DNA from: an uncultured Nitrospiraceae bacterium
Lineage (GTDB): Bacteria > Nitrospirota > Thermodesulfovibrionia > Thermodesulfovibrionales > Dissulfurispiraceae
NCBI GenBank assembly: GCA_903822005.1
Contig: CAIJNL010000002.1
Coordinates: forward strand, 124,001-188,000
Direction of reading: 5' to 3'
DNA length: 64,000 nt
Shown here: positions 36,629-46,013 of the stretch, one piece after another
How the letters are laid out: each line of letters begins with the position of its first letter
How positions within the stretch are numbered: the stretch's first letter is position 1
Notes under the pieces: model-generated
Told to the model about the DNA's origin: nothing
Databases searched by the model: none
What the model saw: only the letters and a program-made list of their open reading frames with translations
Position numbers and translations under genes: made by a program

Positions 36629-37306
36629 TTGGAAACACCTAATTTGCTGCATTCGCTGTTGCCAATGTTTCCGCCATATATTACTTATTCATGGCTCGCA
36701 ATGCTCATACTGATCTCGGTCGCTGCCGTGGTTCGGACAAGGCTCAGCCTCGTGCCTTCAGGCGTACAGAACCTGATGGAAGTATTCTGCGACTTCTTTC
36801 TGTCCACATCGAAGGCCAGTATCGGCAGCCATTACGGAGAGAAATTCTACCCTCTGCTCGGTACGATCTTTCTCTATATCCTTGTCTGTAACATATTCGG
36901 CCTGATACCGGGGTTCGAATCTCCGACAAGCAATATCAATATGACCGCTTCCATGGCATTGCCCGTATTCCTGATCTATCAGTACTATGGCATCAAAATA
37001 CATGGTATCAGCTATATCAAGCATTTTGTAGGACCTATACGTTCGGTTGCCGCAATACCTTTTATGATATTCATGTTCATTCTTGAAGTTATCGGCCATC
37101 TCGTAAGGCCTGTCACCCTTTCGGTTCGACTTTTCGGCAATATGATGGCCAAGCATCTCCTGCTGATAATTCTAGGCATACTCGCACCCTGGATACTGCC
37201 TGTGGCTATCCTCGGTCTCGGGACCCTGATAAGCTTTATACAGGCATATGTTTTCATGCTCCTGACCGCTCTCTATCTTGCAGGCGCGGTTGAGGAAGCT
37301 CATTAA
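36629..37306 (+). CDS. atpB: F-type ATP synthase subunit a
   Basis: A 225-aa integral membrane protein with the essential Arg in SVRLFGNMMAKH (about residue 170) and the family C-terminal block LISFIQAYVFMLLTALYL. It forms the proton half-channels beside the c-ring in the F0 sector. It starts at a TTG preceded by a strong AGGAGGG site. Only atpE follows; the b, delta, alpha, gamma, beta and epsilon genes are not in this window, so the ATP synthase genes are split. Confidence 0.95.
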   Translation: METPNLLHSLLPMFPPYITYSWLAMLILISVAAVVRTRLSLVPSGVQNLMEVFCDFFLSTSKASIGSHYGEKFYPLLGTIFLYILVCNIFGLIPGFESPTSNINMTASMALPVFLIYQYYGIKIHGISYIKHFVGPIRSVAAIPFMIFMFILEVIGHLVRPVTLSVRLFGNMMAKHLLLIILGILAPWILPVAILGLGTLISFIQAYVFMLLTALYLAGAVEEAH

Positions 37307-37335
37307 TACCAATATCAGAGGAAGGAGGAAATAAA

Positions 37336-37686
37336 ATGAAGAAAACATTCATGGTAACAATGCTCGCACTGTTCGCAATCGCGCTTCTTGCGCCGTTCGC
37401 ATTTGCGGCAGATCCGGCAGGCGCACCGATGGACCCGGCCAAACTTCAGTACTACGGGCTGGCAACACTCGGCTGCGCAATCGGAATCGGCCTTGCCGCA
37501 GCAGGTTGCGGCGCAGGCATGGGTCACGGCATCAGAGGAGCTCTTGAGGGGACCGCAAGGAACCCGGCCGTCGGCGGCAAGCTCATGACGACATTGATCA
37601 TCGGACTTGCGATGATCGAGTCGCTCGCTATTTACGCGCTCGTTATAGTTCTGATCACATTTTACGCTAATCCGTTTATTAAATAA
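37336..37686 (+). CDS. atpE: F-type ATP synthase subunit c
   Basis: A 116-aa proteolipid, longer than usual (about 75-90) because it has a cleavable signal-like N-terminus (residues 1-24, ending AFAAD). Two helices flank the polar ARNP loop. The ion-binding Glu is in MIESLAIYALV. Na+-type c subunits have a Gln in helix 1 at the position that here looks like Met, so H+ coupling is more likely (inference). An AGGAGG site precedes the ATG and a strong terminator follows. Confidence 0.93.
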   Translation: MKKTFMVTMLALFAIALLAPFAFAADPAGAPMDPAKLQYYGLATLGCAIGIGLAAAGCGAGMGHGIRGALEGTARNPAVGGKLMTTLIIGLAMIESLAIYALVIVLITFYANPFIK

Positions 37687-39426: not shown

Positions 39427-40239
39427 ATGATGGAGTCGTCGACAAGAAATATTTCATTAAGGACCTTTCTGGATTTCCTCGGGGCCAGGGCCATGAAGGT
39501 CATAGACGGACTTGGCGCTTTTGCGATCTTCTTCATGCTTGCCTTTTTGAAGATCTTCAGGCACAAACAGATACGGGAGATTATCCAGCAGATATATTTT
39601 ATCGGGGCCAAGTCTTCAAATATCGTTATGCTTGTCGGCCTCTTCACCGGAATGGTGCTCGGTCTTCAGCTTTTCTATACGCTGGCAAAATTTGGTGCCG
39701 GCGGGGTCCTCGGCTCGGTCGTTGCCCACACACTCATCCGGGAACTAGGTCCCGTGCTTACAGCGATAATGATAACAGCGCGTGCAGGTTCTGCCATGAC
39801 GGCTGAAATCGGCATCCTGCGAATCTCCGAACAGATTGACTCCCTATATACCATGCGTATTGACCCGTTGCGCTATCTCATCAGTCCGCGTATAGCCGCC
39901 GCAATCATCAGCTTCCCGTTTCTGACAGCCTTCTTCGACCTTATCGGCATCTTTGGGGGTTACCTCACAGGGGTCCTGCTGCTCGGTGTTAATGATGGTT
40001 CTTATTTTTACCGCATCCACGCCTTCGTCGACATAACTGATATCAGGCTGGGCTTCATCAAGTCACTCATCTTTGCCGTACTCGTGGCGACAACCTGCTG
40101 TTACCAGGGCTACTTCACCCACCTTCGTACCGACAGCTACGGAGCAAAGAGCGTGAGTATCTCTACCACCTCGGCAGTAGTGATCTCATGCGTCATGATT
40201 CTAATCTCGGATTACATTGTTACATCATTGCTGATATAG
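39427..40239 (+). CDS. mlaE: MlaE-type lipid transport permease
   Basis: A 270-aa permease of the MlaE/YrbE family. An amphipathic N-terminal helix (FLDFLGARAMKVIDGLGAFA) is followed by about five membrane segments with the family core GLFTGMVLGLQ and ELGPVLTAIMITARAGSAM, then EIGILRISEQIDSLYTM. With MlaF and MlaD it forms the inner-membrane complex that moves phospholipids between membranes. TATACT lies 3 nt before the ATG and no ribosome site is visible. Confidence 0.92.
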   Translation: MMESSTRNISLRTFLDFLGARAMKVIDGLGAFAIFFMLAFLKIFRHKQIREIIQQIYFIGAKSSNIVMLVGLFTGMVLGLQLFYTLAKFGAGGVLGSVVAHTLIRELGPVLTAIMITARAGSAMTAEIGILRISEQIDSLYTMRIDPLRYLISPRIAAAIISFPFLTAFFDLIGIFGGYLTGVLLLGVNDGSYFYRIHAFVDITDIRLGFIKSLIFAVLVATTCCYQGYFTHLRTDSYGAKSVSISTTSAVVISCVMILISDYIVTSLLI

Positions 40240-40247
40240 AGGAAAAT

Positions 40248-41474
40248 GTGGAAACCCCATTAATAGAATTCAGAGATGTCATCAAGCGCTTTGACGAAAA
40301 GACCATTCTCGAAAGGGTAAATCTTGATATTTACGAGAACCAGATAACAACGATCATCGGGAAGAGCGGCAGCGGCAAGAGCGTTCTCCTTAAACACATC
40401 ATCGGCCTGCTCTCGCCCGACGAGGGAGACATACTCTTCAGGGGACAGTCCATTCATAAAATGAAAAAAAGCGAATGGGACGGTTACCGCAGCAAAATAA
40501 GCTATATGTTCCAGAACAATGCCCTCTTCGATTCGATGTCGGTCTTTGAAAACATAGCCCTGCCCCTCAGGCAGACCACAAATCTGCGCAGGAAAGAGAT
40601 CGAGCAAAAGGTAATGTCGAGGTGCGAGCAGATGGAACTGGCAGACGCAATTCTCCAGTATCCATCGGAACTCTCTGGCGGGATGCAGAAACGAGTGGCC
40701 CTTGCCCGGGCCCTTGTAACGGACCCGACTATTGTGCTTTTCGATGAGCCTACGACCGGCCAGGACCCTATCAGGAAAAACATCATACTGAGTATGATTG
40801 CCCATTACCGTAAACAGTTCGAGTTTACTGCCATCCTCATCAGCCATGATATCCCCGATGTATTATTTATCTCTGACAGGATACTTCTGCTTTGGGAGGG
40901 CAAGATCGCCTTTCACGGGACTTACGAAGAACTGTCGCATCTGAAACACCCGATGATCGATGAATTTCTGCAGAGCATCACAGGCCTGCGTGACGAGCTG
41001 ACCGGGCTGCTATCCAAAGAAATATTCCGGGCCAGATATTCCCTGATGCTGGGTATCGGCCAGAGTGACACCGCTCTGACGGCAATAATATTCAGCGTCC
41101 ATTTCGAGCGGCTCTCGGAAGCTCTCGGGCACCAGGCGGCTATAGAAGTCGTAAAGGCCCTTGGGGAATATGTCCATAAATATTTCGATCCTATCGGGGG
41201 ATTCTCGACCCGTCACAGCAGAGAGCAGATTCTTACAATACTGCCCCGAATTGGGGCCGAAGAAGCCGAGCGGCTAATGCTTGAGATGGCAGAGGGGTTC
41301 CAGTCAAAAAAACTCCCTGAGATACAGGCAGCAGCCGGCAAAAGAATAGGCGTAAAGGCAAGTTTCGAAATATCCGTTAGCGCAGGGTTGACCAATAGCA
41401 GCGAGGACGATGACATAGAGCTCATGATTGACAGGGCTGAAGCGAATCAAAAGATAATCGCAAGATACCAGTAA
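40248..41474 (+). CDS. mlaF: MlaF-type ABC ATPase fused to a degenerate GGDEF domain
   Basis: A 408-aa protein starting at a GTG with an AGAGGA site. Residues 1-240 are a typical MlaF ATPase: Walker A GKSGSGKS, Q-loop FQNNALF, signature ELSGGMQKR, Walker B IVLFDEPTTGQDP and switch ISHDIPD. Ordinary MlaF ends near 270 aa. Here about 160 further residues match the diguanylate cyclase fold: DELTGLLSKEIF at the start, FERLSEALGHQAAIEVVKALG, then RHSREQILTILP where active enzymes have R-x-GGDEF, and EISVSAGLTNS near the end. The GGDEF motif is replaced by HSREQ, so it is probably non-catalytic and may sense a ligand or bind a partner (inference). It overlaps mlaD's open frame (TAATG). Confidence 0.88.
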   Translation: METPLIEFRDVIKRFDEKTILERVNLDIYENQITTIIGKSGSGKSVLLKHIIGLLSPDEGDILFRGQSIHKMKKSEWDGYRSKISYMFQNNALFDSMSVFENIALPLRQTTNLRRKEIEQKVMSRCEQMELADAILQYPSELSGGMQKRVALARALVTDPTIVLFDEPTTGQDPIRKNIILSMIAHYRKQFEFTAILISHDIPDVLFISDRILLLWEGKIAFHGTYEELSHLKHPMIDEFLQSITGLRDELTGLLSKEIFRARYSLMLGIGQSDTALTAIIFSVHFERLSEALGHQAAIEVVKALGEYVHKYFDPIGGFSTRHSREQILTILPRIGAEEAERLMLEMAEGFQSKKLPEIQAAAGKRIGVKASFEISVSAGLTNSSEDDDIELMIDRAEANQKIIARYQ

Positions 41475-41494
41475 TGAATGGAGGATGGTTCAAA

Positions 41495-41959
41495 ATGAAA
41501 AAGTATTCGATAGAAACGGTTGTCGGTATCTTTGTGCTGATCGGCATCATTTGCGTGGCATATATGACCCTGAAACTCGGCAAGGTTTCTTTTTCCGGAG
41601 ACAGTTACTATTCCCTCTATGCTGATTTTACCTCTGTATCGGGCCTTAGAATCGGCAATCCCATCGAGATCGAAGGCATCGAAGTCGGGCGGGTCGAAAA
41701 TATGAGTATCGATCAAAAGAGGCAGGTGGCTGTAGTAGAACTGAAGATCCGCAAGGGAATAAACGTATATGACGATGCGAGCGCCACAATCAAGACTGCC
41801 GGGCTGATAGGAGACAAATTTATCAAGATCGATGCGGGCGGGGCGGGCGGCGTCCTTAAACATGGTGACAGGATCACTGAAACCACGGCCGCTCTTGATA
41901 TAGAAGACCTCGTCGGTAAATACGCATTCGGTGATGTCACAAAAAAGGGTAATAAATAA
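41495..41959 (+). CDS. mlaD: MlaD-type MCE-domain lipid-binding protein
   Basis: A 154-aa protein with one N-terminal membrane helix (residues about 7-26) and an MCE domain (YYSLYADFTSVSGLRIGNPI through LIGDKFIKI). It forms the hexameric periplasmic ring on MlaE. I chose the ATG at 41495 because GGAGG precedes it; an earlier ATG at 41474 overlaps the mlaF stop. The E-F-D-C order is standard; no mlaB or mlaA is present. Confidence 0.92.
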   Translation: MKKYSIETVVGIFVLIGIICVAYMTLKLGKVSFSGDSYYSLYADFTSVSGLRIGNPIEIEGIEVGRVENMSIDQKRQVAVVELKIRKGINVYDDASATIKTAGLIGDKFIKIDAGGAGGVLKHGDRITETTAALDIEDLVGKYAFGDVTKKGNK

Positions 41960-41985: not shown

Positions 41986-42579
41986 ATGAAAAAGAAACTG
42001 GCAATATTCACAATTATTCTATGCCTGATTTTCCCTTTGATTGTCTTTGCAGGGGTGCCGCTTGACACGGTAAAAGGCAATGTCGACAAGATACTTGACG
42101 TGCTGCGCGATCCGGCTCTCAAGCCGGCATCCGGCGCAAAGATCAAGAAAAACAAGATACGGGTCATCGCCGACAAAATGTTCGATTTTACGGAGCTTTC
42201 CAGAAGGACACTGGCCTTGAACTGGAACAAGTTCACTCCTGCACAACAAACGGAATTCATTTCTCTATACAAGAACCTACTCGCAGACACCTATGCCGAC
42301 AAGATAGTGGCATATACAGATGAAAAGATAGTCTTCACCAAAGAGGTTCCTCTCACCGAAAATACTGTGGAGGTTCAAAGCACGGTCATCAGAAAGGCCG
42401 GCGAGACCCCTATTTATTATCGCGTGATAATGTCGAATGGCTCATGGATGATCTATGATGTAGTAGTAGAAGGTGTCAGCCTTGTCAATAATTACCGCTC
42501 CCAGTTCAGGGATATCCTCTCTAAAAAGCCGCCGGCATCGCTCCTGGAAACGCTCAGGGAAAAAGCTAAAAAAAGCTGA
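41986..42579 (+). CDS. mlaC: MlaC-type periplasmic phospholipid-binding protein
   Basis: A 197-aa protein with a signal peptide (1-22, ending IVFAG) and the MlaC/Ttg2D core: DFTELSRRTLALNW, FTPAQQTEFISLYKNLL and a C-terminal strand pair around WMIYDVVVEGVSLVNNYRSQF. It carries phospholipid between the MlaD ring and the outer membrane. CGGAGGA precedes the ATG. Last gene of the Mla operon. Confidence 0.92.
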   Translation: MKKKLAIFTIILCLIFPLIVFAGVPLDTVKGNVDKILDVLRDPALKPASGAKIKKNKIRVIADKMFDFTELSRRTLALNWNKFTPAQQTEFISLYKNLLADTYADKIVAYTDEKIVFTKEVPLTENTVEVQSTVIRKAGETPIYYRVIMSNGSWMIYDVVVEGVSLVNNYRSQFRDILSKKPPASLLETLREKAKKS

Positions 42580-42950
42580 ACCCATCAAGGAGATTCATCT
42601 GAAGACAAAAAAAGCATTTTGCATCTTTTAATGAGGGCATCTTAAGGATCACATATATCGAACTGTGCCATGCGTGGCGCCACACCGCATTACAATAGCC
42701 CCATATTGCGCCACATATTTGATATCTTATGATCCGAGCAACTCCCTATGCCGGCATGGCTGTCGCCGCACTGATAACCTTTGCGGTCGGTGTTTCGGTG
42801 CGCAAACTGCAGTACAGCATGTGATAAAAAGTCAGCCCGGATAATTTACCCTCTCCTGTCTATTTTGACTTATCCGGGAATACGGATAAGATTAAGATAG
42901 ACGGTAATAGTGATAAAGATAAATCGATGTGTCATTAAACGGAGGGTAAG
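42580..42950. other. 371-bp intergenic region after mlaC
   Basis: It holds an uncertain 31-codon frame (42729-42824) encoding one membrane-like segment, without a ribosome site, possibly the remnant of a permease tail. Its right end carries the promoter and palindrome of the small lipoprotein gene (42865-42892). I see no clear terminator for the mla operon. Confidence 0.45.
42865..42892 (+). promoter_or_regulatory. Promoter with spacer palindrome, lipoprotein gene 1
   Basis: TTGACT (42865-42870) and TAAGAT (42887-42892) with a 16-nt spacer that contains a perfect inverted repeat TATCCG-GGAATA-CGGATA (42871-42888). The same layout is found before the second lipoprotein gene. Confidence 0.65.
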
Positions 42951-43130
42951 ATGAAAAGAGCTTTTAGCCTAATCCTGGCCATAATCATTCTTGTCGCATG
43001 CTTCGGATGTGCTCCTTATGAAAGCAGCCGCGATCGTCCGTATGACCGGGAACGTCATCATGATACGAATATTAACCCTGGGGTTGACATTGACCGCGAC
43101 CAATCGCAAGAGCGTGATCACAGGATATAA
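42951..43130 (+). CDS. Small lipoprotein, tandem copy 1
   Basis: A 59-aa protein beginning MKRAFSLILAIIILVAC with a lipobox LVAC (Cys17) and a second Cys three residues later. The short mature part is rich in Arg, Asp and His (SSRDRPYDRERHHD). GGAGGG precedes the ATG. It is a duplicate of the gene at 43285-43521: the signal, CFGC motif and first mature residues match, as do promoter and leader. No family recognised. Confidence 0.7.
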   Translation: MKRAFSLILAIIILVACFGCAPYESSRDRPYDRERHHDTNINPGVDIDRDQSQERDHRI

Positions 43131-43191
43131 ATATTGGGACGGTCTGCTTTGAAAGGTAATTCTCAGGATTATGTGCCCTCTTATATCTATT

Positions 43192-43219
43192 TTGACAAAT
43201 CCGAAAATCTGGATAAGAT
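43192..43219 (+). promoter_or_regulatory. Promoter with spacer palindrome, lipoprotein gene 2
   Basis: TTGACA (43192-43197) and TAAGAT (43214-43219), 16 nt apart, with the spacer half-sites AATCCG and TGGATA separated by six bases, an imperfect version of the palindrome before gene 1. Confidence 0.65.
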
Positions 43220-43284
43220 AGATAATGATCAGATAGTCATCCTGATCAAGACGGATGGACATGCTAAAGCAAAAGGAGGGTAAA

Positions 43285-44441: not shown

Positions 44442-45182
44442 TTACGACATCCCGCTCCACATTATTTTATCCGCGTCATCCTTCGGTTTTGCCTTTTCCA
44501 CCTCTTGAGACGCTTTCTTTTGTGCGGCCTCTTTCTGTTTCAATGCTTTTAAGCGCTCAATATAGTTGATATGATTGTCGGGCGGAGTAACACCCTTGAC
44601 AAAGGCCTTTGCAAGGACCATAGTGGGATTGCTCAGGGGTTCCGGCTTTTCTTTATATTGCAACGCAAGTATGTCAATCGTAGAAATGACCTTGCTAAGT
44701 CCATACAGGGATATAAAACCTTCAAGTGCGGCATTGTCTACCTCCGCGTAAGGAGTGGCCCTGGCTACATCGCCCAGCATATCAGAAGATAAAAGCAGAC
44801 CATCACCCGTAAGCTCTTTTATGACCTGTTTCAATTTTCCCTGTTCCCTGCCAGGCGCTGAAGTGTCACCCAGTTTGCCTTTTATACTGCCTGAAATTAT
44901 CCTGTATGAAAAATCCGTATCGGTTATGTCTTTTTGCTCAATAAAACCTTTGATCAGGAGCTGGTTCTTGGCCTCCTGCGTTTCTATCCAGCCGAGTCCA
45001 GTCTCCAGTTCCGCCTCATCTGTTTTTTTAGTTATCCAACCTCCGGCACCTGTACCGGAAACCGCCCACTTTAGCAGATGGGACAAGAGAACAGCCGACG
45101 TAATACTGCCTGTAATTATTGACAGCGATGGGTGGTAATATGATGCTTGTCCGACTGATTTCAATATCTCATCAGGTTTCAT
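44442..45182 (-). CDS. Winged-helix (DnaD/phage replication protein-like) protein, tandem copy 1
   Basis: A 246-aa protein whose first 80 residues follow the winged-helix pattern of phage replication and DnaD-like proteins: ITGSITSAVLLSHLLKWAV, GGWITKKTDEAELETGLG, then TQEAKNQLLIKGFIEQ. The rest is helical with a Lys-rich, low-complexity tail (KQKEAAQKKASQEVEKAKPK). I call only a probable DNA-binding fold; its role is unknown. GAGG precedes the ATG at 45182. It is about two-thirds identical by eye to the gene at 45270-46013. Confidence 0.65.
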   Translation of the reverse strand: MKPDEILKSVGQASYYHPSLSIITGSITSAVLLSHLLKWAVSGTGAGGWITKKTDEAELETGLGWIETQEAKNQLLIKGFIEQKDITDTDFSYRIISGSIKGKLGDTSAPGREQGKLKQVIKELTGDGLLLSSDMLGDVARATPYAEVDNAALEGFISLYGLSKVISTIDILALQYKEKPEPLSNPTMVLAKAFVKGVTPPDNHINYIERLKALKQKEAAQKKASQEVEKAKPKDDADKIMWSGMS

Positions 45183-45269
45183 TATGACCTCTTTCCGGTT
45201 GCCCAAAATCTGTATCGCTATTGCGTTTTATTGTCAGCATTACAGGCAGCCTCAAAACCAGTGCAATCC

Positions 45270-46013
45270 TCACATTCCTTTCCACGGGGAATTAATCTCC
45301 TCCTCTTCACCGGAAGCAGTATCCCTCTTTGCTTTTTCAGGCTCTTTTTTCAATTGAATTTCCATCGCTTTCAGTGCCCTGAGGCGTTCAAAATAGCTGA
45401 CATGATTTTCGGGTAGAACAACGCCCTTTATAAAGGCCTTGGCCAGTATCATGGTAGGATTATTTATGGAAACCGGCTTCTCCCTGTACTGAGCGGCAAG
45501 TATGTCAAGTGTGGAAATGACGCTGCTGAGTCCATAAAGAGAGATAAAACCCTCAAGCGCAGTATTGTCTACCTCCGCGTAAGGCGTGGCTCTGGCTACA
45601 TCGCCCAGCATATCAGAAGATAAGAGCAGACCGTCTGCCGTTAGCTCCTTTACGATCTTCTTGAATTTTCCCTGCAGTTTGCCGACCGCAACAATATCGC
45701 CAAGATGCTCTTTCATATTGTCAGAATTTATCCTATATGAAAAATCCGTATCGTTTATGTCCTTTTGCTCGATAAAACCTTTGGTCAGAAGCTGGTTCTT
45801 GGCCTCCTGCATTTCTATCCAGCCAAGCCCTGTTTCCAGTGCTGCCTCATCTGTTTTTTTCGTTATCCAGCCTTCGGCATCCCTGCCAGAGACCGACCAT
45901 TTCAGCAATTGGGACATAAGAATAGCTGACGCAATGCTGCCTGTAATTTTGGTTAAAGAAGGGTAATATGAAGATGATTTCCCGGCTTCTCTCAAGATTT
46001 CATCAGGTTTCAT
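45270..46013 (-). CDS. Winged-helix (DnaD/phage replication protein-like) protein, tandem copy 2
   Basis: A 247-aa paralogue of the next gene downstream, with the same start (MKPDEIL), the same winged-helix block (GWITKKTDEAALETGLGWIE) and the same central block SSDMLGDVARATPYAEVDN. The C-terminal tails differ. The copies are 87 bp apart and in the same orientation, a recent tandem duplication. No phage genes surround them, so they look like a domesticated or lineage-specific family. Confidence 0.65.
   Translation of the reverse strand: MKPDEILREAGKSSSYYPSLTKITGSIASAILMSQLLKWSVSGRDAEGWITKKTDEAALETGLGWIEMQEAKNQLLTKGFIEQKDINDTDFSYRINSDNMKEHLGDIVAVGKLQGKFKKIVKELTADGLLLSSDMLGDVARATPYAEVDNTALEGFISLYGLSSVISTLDILAAQYREKPVSINNPTMILAKAFIKGVVLPENHVSYFERLRALKAMEIQLKKEPEKAKRDTASGEEEEINSPWKGM

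Follow-up and report, generated by a model that had tools for sequence, protein, structure and literature searches.

The window, a 64,000-nucleotide stretch of DNA from an uncultured Nitrospiraceae bacterium, carries an operon for a Mla-type lipid transporter in which the gene for the ATPase MlaF is fused to a region encoding a degenerate GGDEF domain. The features of this locus are as follows.

39427..40239, plus strand: mlaE, lipid ABC transporter permease (Pfam MlaE, 252.5 bits)
40248..41474, plus strand: mlaF-GGDEF fusion gene, with a GTG start and a TAA stop, encoding 408 amino acids
40248..40973, plus strand: MlaF ABC ATPase part, residues 1-242 (PF00005; the match to solved MlaF chains stops there)
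40974..41471, plus strand: degenerate GGDEF domain, residues 243-408 (PF00990, 32.0 bits; structure model and fold matches)
40992..41006, plus strand: DELTG, corresponding to the conserved DxLTG entry motif when aligned with the genome's canonical GGDEF domains
41217..41231, plus strand: SREQI, residues 324-328, at the canonical GG[DE]EF position, preceded by an invariant arginine (residue 322)
41495..41959, plus strand: mlaD, MCE-domain protein (Pfam MlaD, 67.8 bits on the longer ORF)
41986..42579, plus strand: mlaC, periplasmic lipid shuttle (Pfam MlaC, 155.3 bits)

Pfam matches in the window place the fused mlaF gene together with mlaE, mlaD, and mlaC, and its relatives keep the same gene order. 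The mlaD gene probably begins at 41495 and not at 41474, as judged from a DNA comparison with the sister species and from a GGAGGAT ribosome site; an alternative ORF that starts with the ATG at 41474 is also present. The fusion gene stops eight residues before the ends of its relatives (TAA, then TGA; 41472-41494), and a cysteine that is conserved in the C-terminal tail of nearly all relatives (CDKEDGSQ in the sister species) is lost from the window protein. Selenocysteine at this position was considered and ruled out, because TAA, followed by TGA, comes directly after the glutamine codon and is an ordinary earlier stop.

No mlaA gene is present at 42580-43260 in the window; in the sister species and in several others, mlaA follows mlaC. 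Elsewhere in the window, the genes for the ATP synthase a and c subunits adjoin at 36629-37686, a few kb upstream of the mla operon. Two adjacent and similar proteins of 254 and 247 amino acids (44442-46013, minus strand) match phrog_9773 (phage replication-initiation O-like) and represent a local duplication.

A GGDEF-fold domain behind an MlaF-type ATPase

As originally predicted, the N-terminal part of the fusion protein is a complete ABC ATPase of the MlaF type. Pfam ABC_tran (PF00005) matches residues 21-170 with 127.6 bits, and the protein has Walker A (GKSGSGKS), MlaF-type LSGGM signature (LSGGMQKR), Walker B (LFDEP), and H-loop (SHD) sequences. The best NCBIfam match is the E. coli-type MlaF model NF008809 (residues 3-245, 203.1 bits), at a score that does not reach the equivalog cut-off of 441. 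In phmmer comparisons with MlaF chains from the PDB, window residues 5-244 were covered and the alignments ended at 242-244, having reached residues 247-253 of the approximately 270 residues of the solved chains. The short C-terminal handshake extension is missing from the window protein, and the region of similarity to solved MlaF is followed by the GGDEF domain instead. Other MlaF-like ATPases retrieved from genomes that carry the fusion end 10-46 residues past the ABC core.

The approximately 160 C-terminal residues had been proposed to follow the diguanylate cyclase pattern, and this proposal is borne out by Pfam, by fold matches, and by the presence of all the quoted motifs (DELTGLLSKEIF at residues 249-260, RHSREQ at 322-327, and EISVSAGL near 375-382). 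The gene coordinates and motifs in the original prediction were right, and its domain span of residues 245-408 is corrected here to 243-408. GGDEF similarity, on which that prediction had staked itself, was found by PF00990, Foldseek, and VIA-align. The gathering cut-off of PF00990, 23.8 bits, is exceeded both by the whole protein (28.8 bits, E = 1.2e-6) and by its C-terminal part when scored separately (32.0 bits, E = 1.3e-7). A structure predicted for residues 243-408 with 11 relatives (pLDDT 78.6, pTM 0.77) yielded top Foldseek matches in the PDB that are all GGDEF domains, namely, SadC (E = 8.6e-8), DosC, PleD, and DgcB, with FimX and LapD also among the fold matches. Aligning this model with solved GGDEF domains by VIA-align gave Z scores of 14-15 over about 150 residues. 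Likewise, the sequence profile of the domain retrieved almost exclusively GGDEF proteins from the PDB, with weak matches (best E = 3.6e-5). The model of the full-length protein was poor (mean pLDDT 55), notably in the ABC part, and was set aside as evidence. A chance match to PF00990 is excluded because 21 of 21 diverse full-length relatives match the family independently (best E = 4.4e-24).

When aligned with canonical GGDEF domains from the same genome, the window domain has serine at the position of the Mg-binding aspartate, glutamate at that of the FK lysine, and SREQI at that of GGDEF. Only the DxLTG entry motif, a GH pair, and the arginine before GGDEF are left of the canonical features. 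A salt bridge joining the DxLT aspartate to this arginine was considered, found no confirmation in the sources read, and is not proposed here. There is also no I-site (RxxD five residues before GGDEF) in this domain, which has proline and glycine at the two positions. The same losses extend across the family. None of the 77 distinct domains keeps GG[DE]EF, the Mg-binding aspartate is kept in 3 of 68 aligned members and the FK lysine in 1 of 68, and the I-site aspartate position is occupied by glycine in 60 of 68. With the A-site and I-site residues gone, the window domain should neither make nor hold c-di-GMP by the usual routes.

The domain thus resembles those of active diguanylate cyclases (PleD, DosC, SadC, and DgcR) in fold, in motif order, in DxLTG, and in the arginine before GGDEF, but it lacks the GGDEF motif, the Mg-binding aspartate, and the I-site, and it is located behind an ABC ATPase rather than a sensor domain. 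FimX, LapD, and GdpP are known for catalytically degenerate GGDEF domains. They share with the window protein a GGDEF fold without cyclase activity (predicted here from the residues present) that serves, in the window protein probably, as a regulatory part, although to our knowledge none of them is joined to the ATPase of an ABC transporter.

Spread and evolution of the fusion

Scanning GTDB genomes yielded 18 loci, 12 of which carry both the ATPase part and the domain. One of these 12 (L043) has a broken domain frame; the remaining 11 share 60-84% identity with the window protein and come from Nitrospirota and from bins labelled deltaproteobacterial or proteobacterial. In whole-genome searches of sampled assemblies, the fusion was found in 20 of 395 Nitrospirota genomes and, at full length, in 50 of 395 genomes of a second phylum, with a few more split by contig ends. 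This second phylum is that of G404, a Desulfococcus-labelled genome, and we infer that it is Desulfobacterota. The original prediction proposed looking for the same fusion in other genomes, and about 77 distinct relatives were found in Nitrospirota and the second phylum, almost all of them within an mlaE-F-D-C(-A) operon. A chimera created by assembly or by MAG binning was ruled out, as the same fusion occurs in many independent assemblies from two phyla.

At all 12 wide loci, mlaE, the fused mlaF, and mlaD are found in that order, with mlaC next in most. The mlaA gene follows at several fusion loci, including that of the sister species (L039), and the occurrence of the mla gene set with mlaA at several loci indicates a true Mla system. 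A second mlaE-mlaF(GGDEF)-mlaD set in the sister species (L043 1562-4045, G001:C131) has a broken domain frame, and the intact copy is the one in L039. The window genome has three more MlaE/MlaF-type loci (L139, L140, and L141, on C36, C18, and C25, respectively), all without a GGDEF domain. In L140, the MlaE protein is extended at its N terminus by about 150 residues that match no Pfam family.

The domain is clearly under purifying selection. Pairwise dN/dS values, computed with the simple NG86 method, are 0.06-0.24 for the domain in 9 of 11 pairs, the other two pairs being saturated. The corresponding values for the ABC part are 0.02-0.11, meaning that the domain evolves faster.

In a tree built from the ABC part, a single branch (support 100/99) separates 67 fusions from 19 non-fused MlaF relatives. 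Once closer non-fused relatives are added, L159 and L160 are placed within or beside the fusions in a tree where some forks are weakly supported. Both L159 (1483-2355) and L160 (3266-4078) are mlaE-F-D-C operons in which the GGDEF domain is deleted and mlaD directly follows mlaF, and a further locus, L172, carries a shortened GGDEF domain. Outside the fusion clade, and subject to the same weakly supported forks, L161, L162, and L164 may represent a pre-fusion sister group. These three are MlaF-like ATPases without the domain, and no MlaE gene was recognized adjoining them.

Possible roles of the fused domain

In active cyclases, GGDEF domains function as dimers. MlaF from E. coli has a C-terminal tail (CTE) of about 25 residues that embraces the partner subunit and is in contact with MlaB as well (PMC7367683). 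Truncation of the CTE abolishes Mla function in E. coli, artificial dimerization largely restores it, and MlaB is required for MlaF to stay on MlaE (PMC7367683). Because the window protein stops resembling solved MlaF at residues 242-244, where the CTE begins, the GGDEF-fold domain stands in the place of the CTE. Compared with MlaF of E. coli and A. baumannii (MlaFEDB; PDB 6xbd and 7d06), the window protein has the same ABC part, aligned from residue 5 to 242-244, and the same mlaE, mlaD, and mlaC partners, but it carries a 166-residue GGDEF-fold domain instead of the roughly 25-residue CTE and has no mlaB in its operon.

The reading we favor, with a probability of about 0.58, is that the fusion protein is a Mla-type ATPase whose CTE has been replaced by a non-catalytic GGDEF-fold module for dimerization or regulation, acquired early and modulatory in its effect. 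The protein belongs to a genuine Mla-type phospholipid transporter (MlaE-F-D-C) as its ATPase, and its short tail has given way to a GGDEF-fold domain without the residues to make or hold c-di-GMP. Two copies of this domain in the MlaF dimer probably keep the two nucleotide-binding domains (NBDs) together and on MlaE and/or set NBD activity, which in E. coli would be the job of the CTE “handshake”, helped by MlaB. The fusion arose early in this MlaF lineage, with the active site already dead in every sampled member, and the domain was deleted later at least twice. Such repeated deletion suggests that the domain is modulatory and not absolutely required.

There are precedents for this type of arrangement. 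The C-terminal domains of MetN (ferredoxin-like) and MalK (TOBE) are thought to control NBD association (PMC7367683). These proteins also have an extra domain after the ABC core, and its role resembles the one proposed here, but their folds and substrates are unrelated, and the fold of the window domain derives from that of diguanylate cyclases.

The original prediction also stated that no mlaB is present and that the extra domain may replace it. To represent MlaB, the STAS_2 profile (PF13466) was used, which finds the E. coli protein in controls and may miss divergent MlaB proteins. No STAS_2 match is present in the mla operon of the window. The only STAS_2 protein in the window genome (C8:1946-2167) sits in a chemotaxis operon, between genes for MCP, CheY, CheA, and CheR, and an MlaB encoded elsewhere in this genome was rejected on this ground. 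Thus, the statement that mlaB is missing holds for the operon and, as far as it is testable, for the genome.

A similar picture emerges when all loci are compared. A STAS_2 gene is found within 16 kb at 0 of 66 fusion loci and within 3 kb at 36 of 87 other MlaE loci of the same genomes, among the matches listed (Fisher p = 3e-11, ignoring relatedness). The fused locus is the sole MlaE locus in 14 genomes, among the matches listed, and in four genomes (G407, G437, G678, and G773) MlaE is matched once and PF13466 never, again among the matches listed. The remaining 51 of the 87 non-fused MlaE loci likewise show no STAS_2 match among those listed, and an N-terminal extension in some of them could be a divergent STAS domain. 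Furthermore, L159 and L160 have lost the domain and gained no nearby STAS gene, and the genome that holds L160 (G640) has no STAS_2 match anywhere.

These distributions bear on a possible but tentative alternative, in which the domain takes over the role of MlaB by folding back onto the MlaF helical subdomain, where it would fill the MlaB site and stabilize MlaF. Such a takeover would fit the lack of STAS_2 genes near any fusion, the genomes whose only MlaE locus is fused, the four genomes without a PF13466 match, and the chemotaxis setting of the sole STAS_2 protein in the window genome. However, the absence of MlaB is by itself no proof of replacement, because MlaF operons lacking both STAS_2 and the domain exist, two of them by secondary loss. 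The data are consistent with the proposed replacement of MlaB, whereas L159, L160, and the 51 other STAS_2-free loci speak against a strict replacement. In addition, MlaB sits on the helical subdomain at a distance from the dimer interface (PMC7367683), and the fused domain follows the tail. Judged by its position, the domain would replace the CTE more directly than it would MlaB.

A role as a docking site appears somewhat doubtful. Here, the domain would bind another protein, such as a cell-envelope or signaling factor, and couple transport to that protein with no effect on dimerization. Degenerate GGDEF domains elsewhere are often binding modules, as in FimX and LapD, and the family-specific GGFS[AT]R stretch (present in 49 of 77 members) and the arginine before the GGDEF-motif position (invariant in 68 of 68 aligned members) would fit such a role. 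Beyond mlaA, however, no conserved extra gene was recognized at the 12 wide loci, where the annotation of neighbors was non-systematic.

The suggestion in the original prediction that the domain senses a nucleotide is not supported. We consider it very unlikely that the domain still responds to GTP, c-di-GMP, or another nucleotide and gates transport accordingly. Although the GGDEF fold is retained, and some members keep glutamate at the fourth position (29 of 68) and an acidic third residue (31 of 68), the GG pair, the Mg-binding aspartate, the FK lysine, and the RxxD I-site are lost in nearly all members. Also very unlikely is the view of the domain as a passive relic that is being lost. This view would suit the higher dN/dS of the domain relative to the ABC part and its deletion or trimming in L159, L160, and L172, but dN/dS is far below 1, the core motifs are conserved, and the domain has been retained in two phyla despite great divergence.

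The analysis confirms that two known families are fused here and that the fusion is real and conserved; no description of it as an MlaF-GGDEF or MlaF-diguanylate cyclase fusion was found in the open-licence literature searched. More speculatively, an ancestral MlaF might have acquired a GGDEF-fold domain in a single event, and this domain might then have lost catalysis and come to stand in for the CTE handshake as well as for MlaB. This path would have given rise to Mla transporters in Nitrospirota and Desulfobacterota that work without MlaB and whose activity might be set through the domain by some signal.

In E. coli, the assembly and regulation of the Mla ATPase depend on the tail and on a STAS protein. 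A widespread natural variant in which the tail is replaced by another fold offers a direct test of whether dimer stabilization alone suffices for MlaF, and the fusion shows GGDEF folds serving as parts of a lipid transporter.
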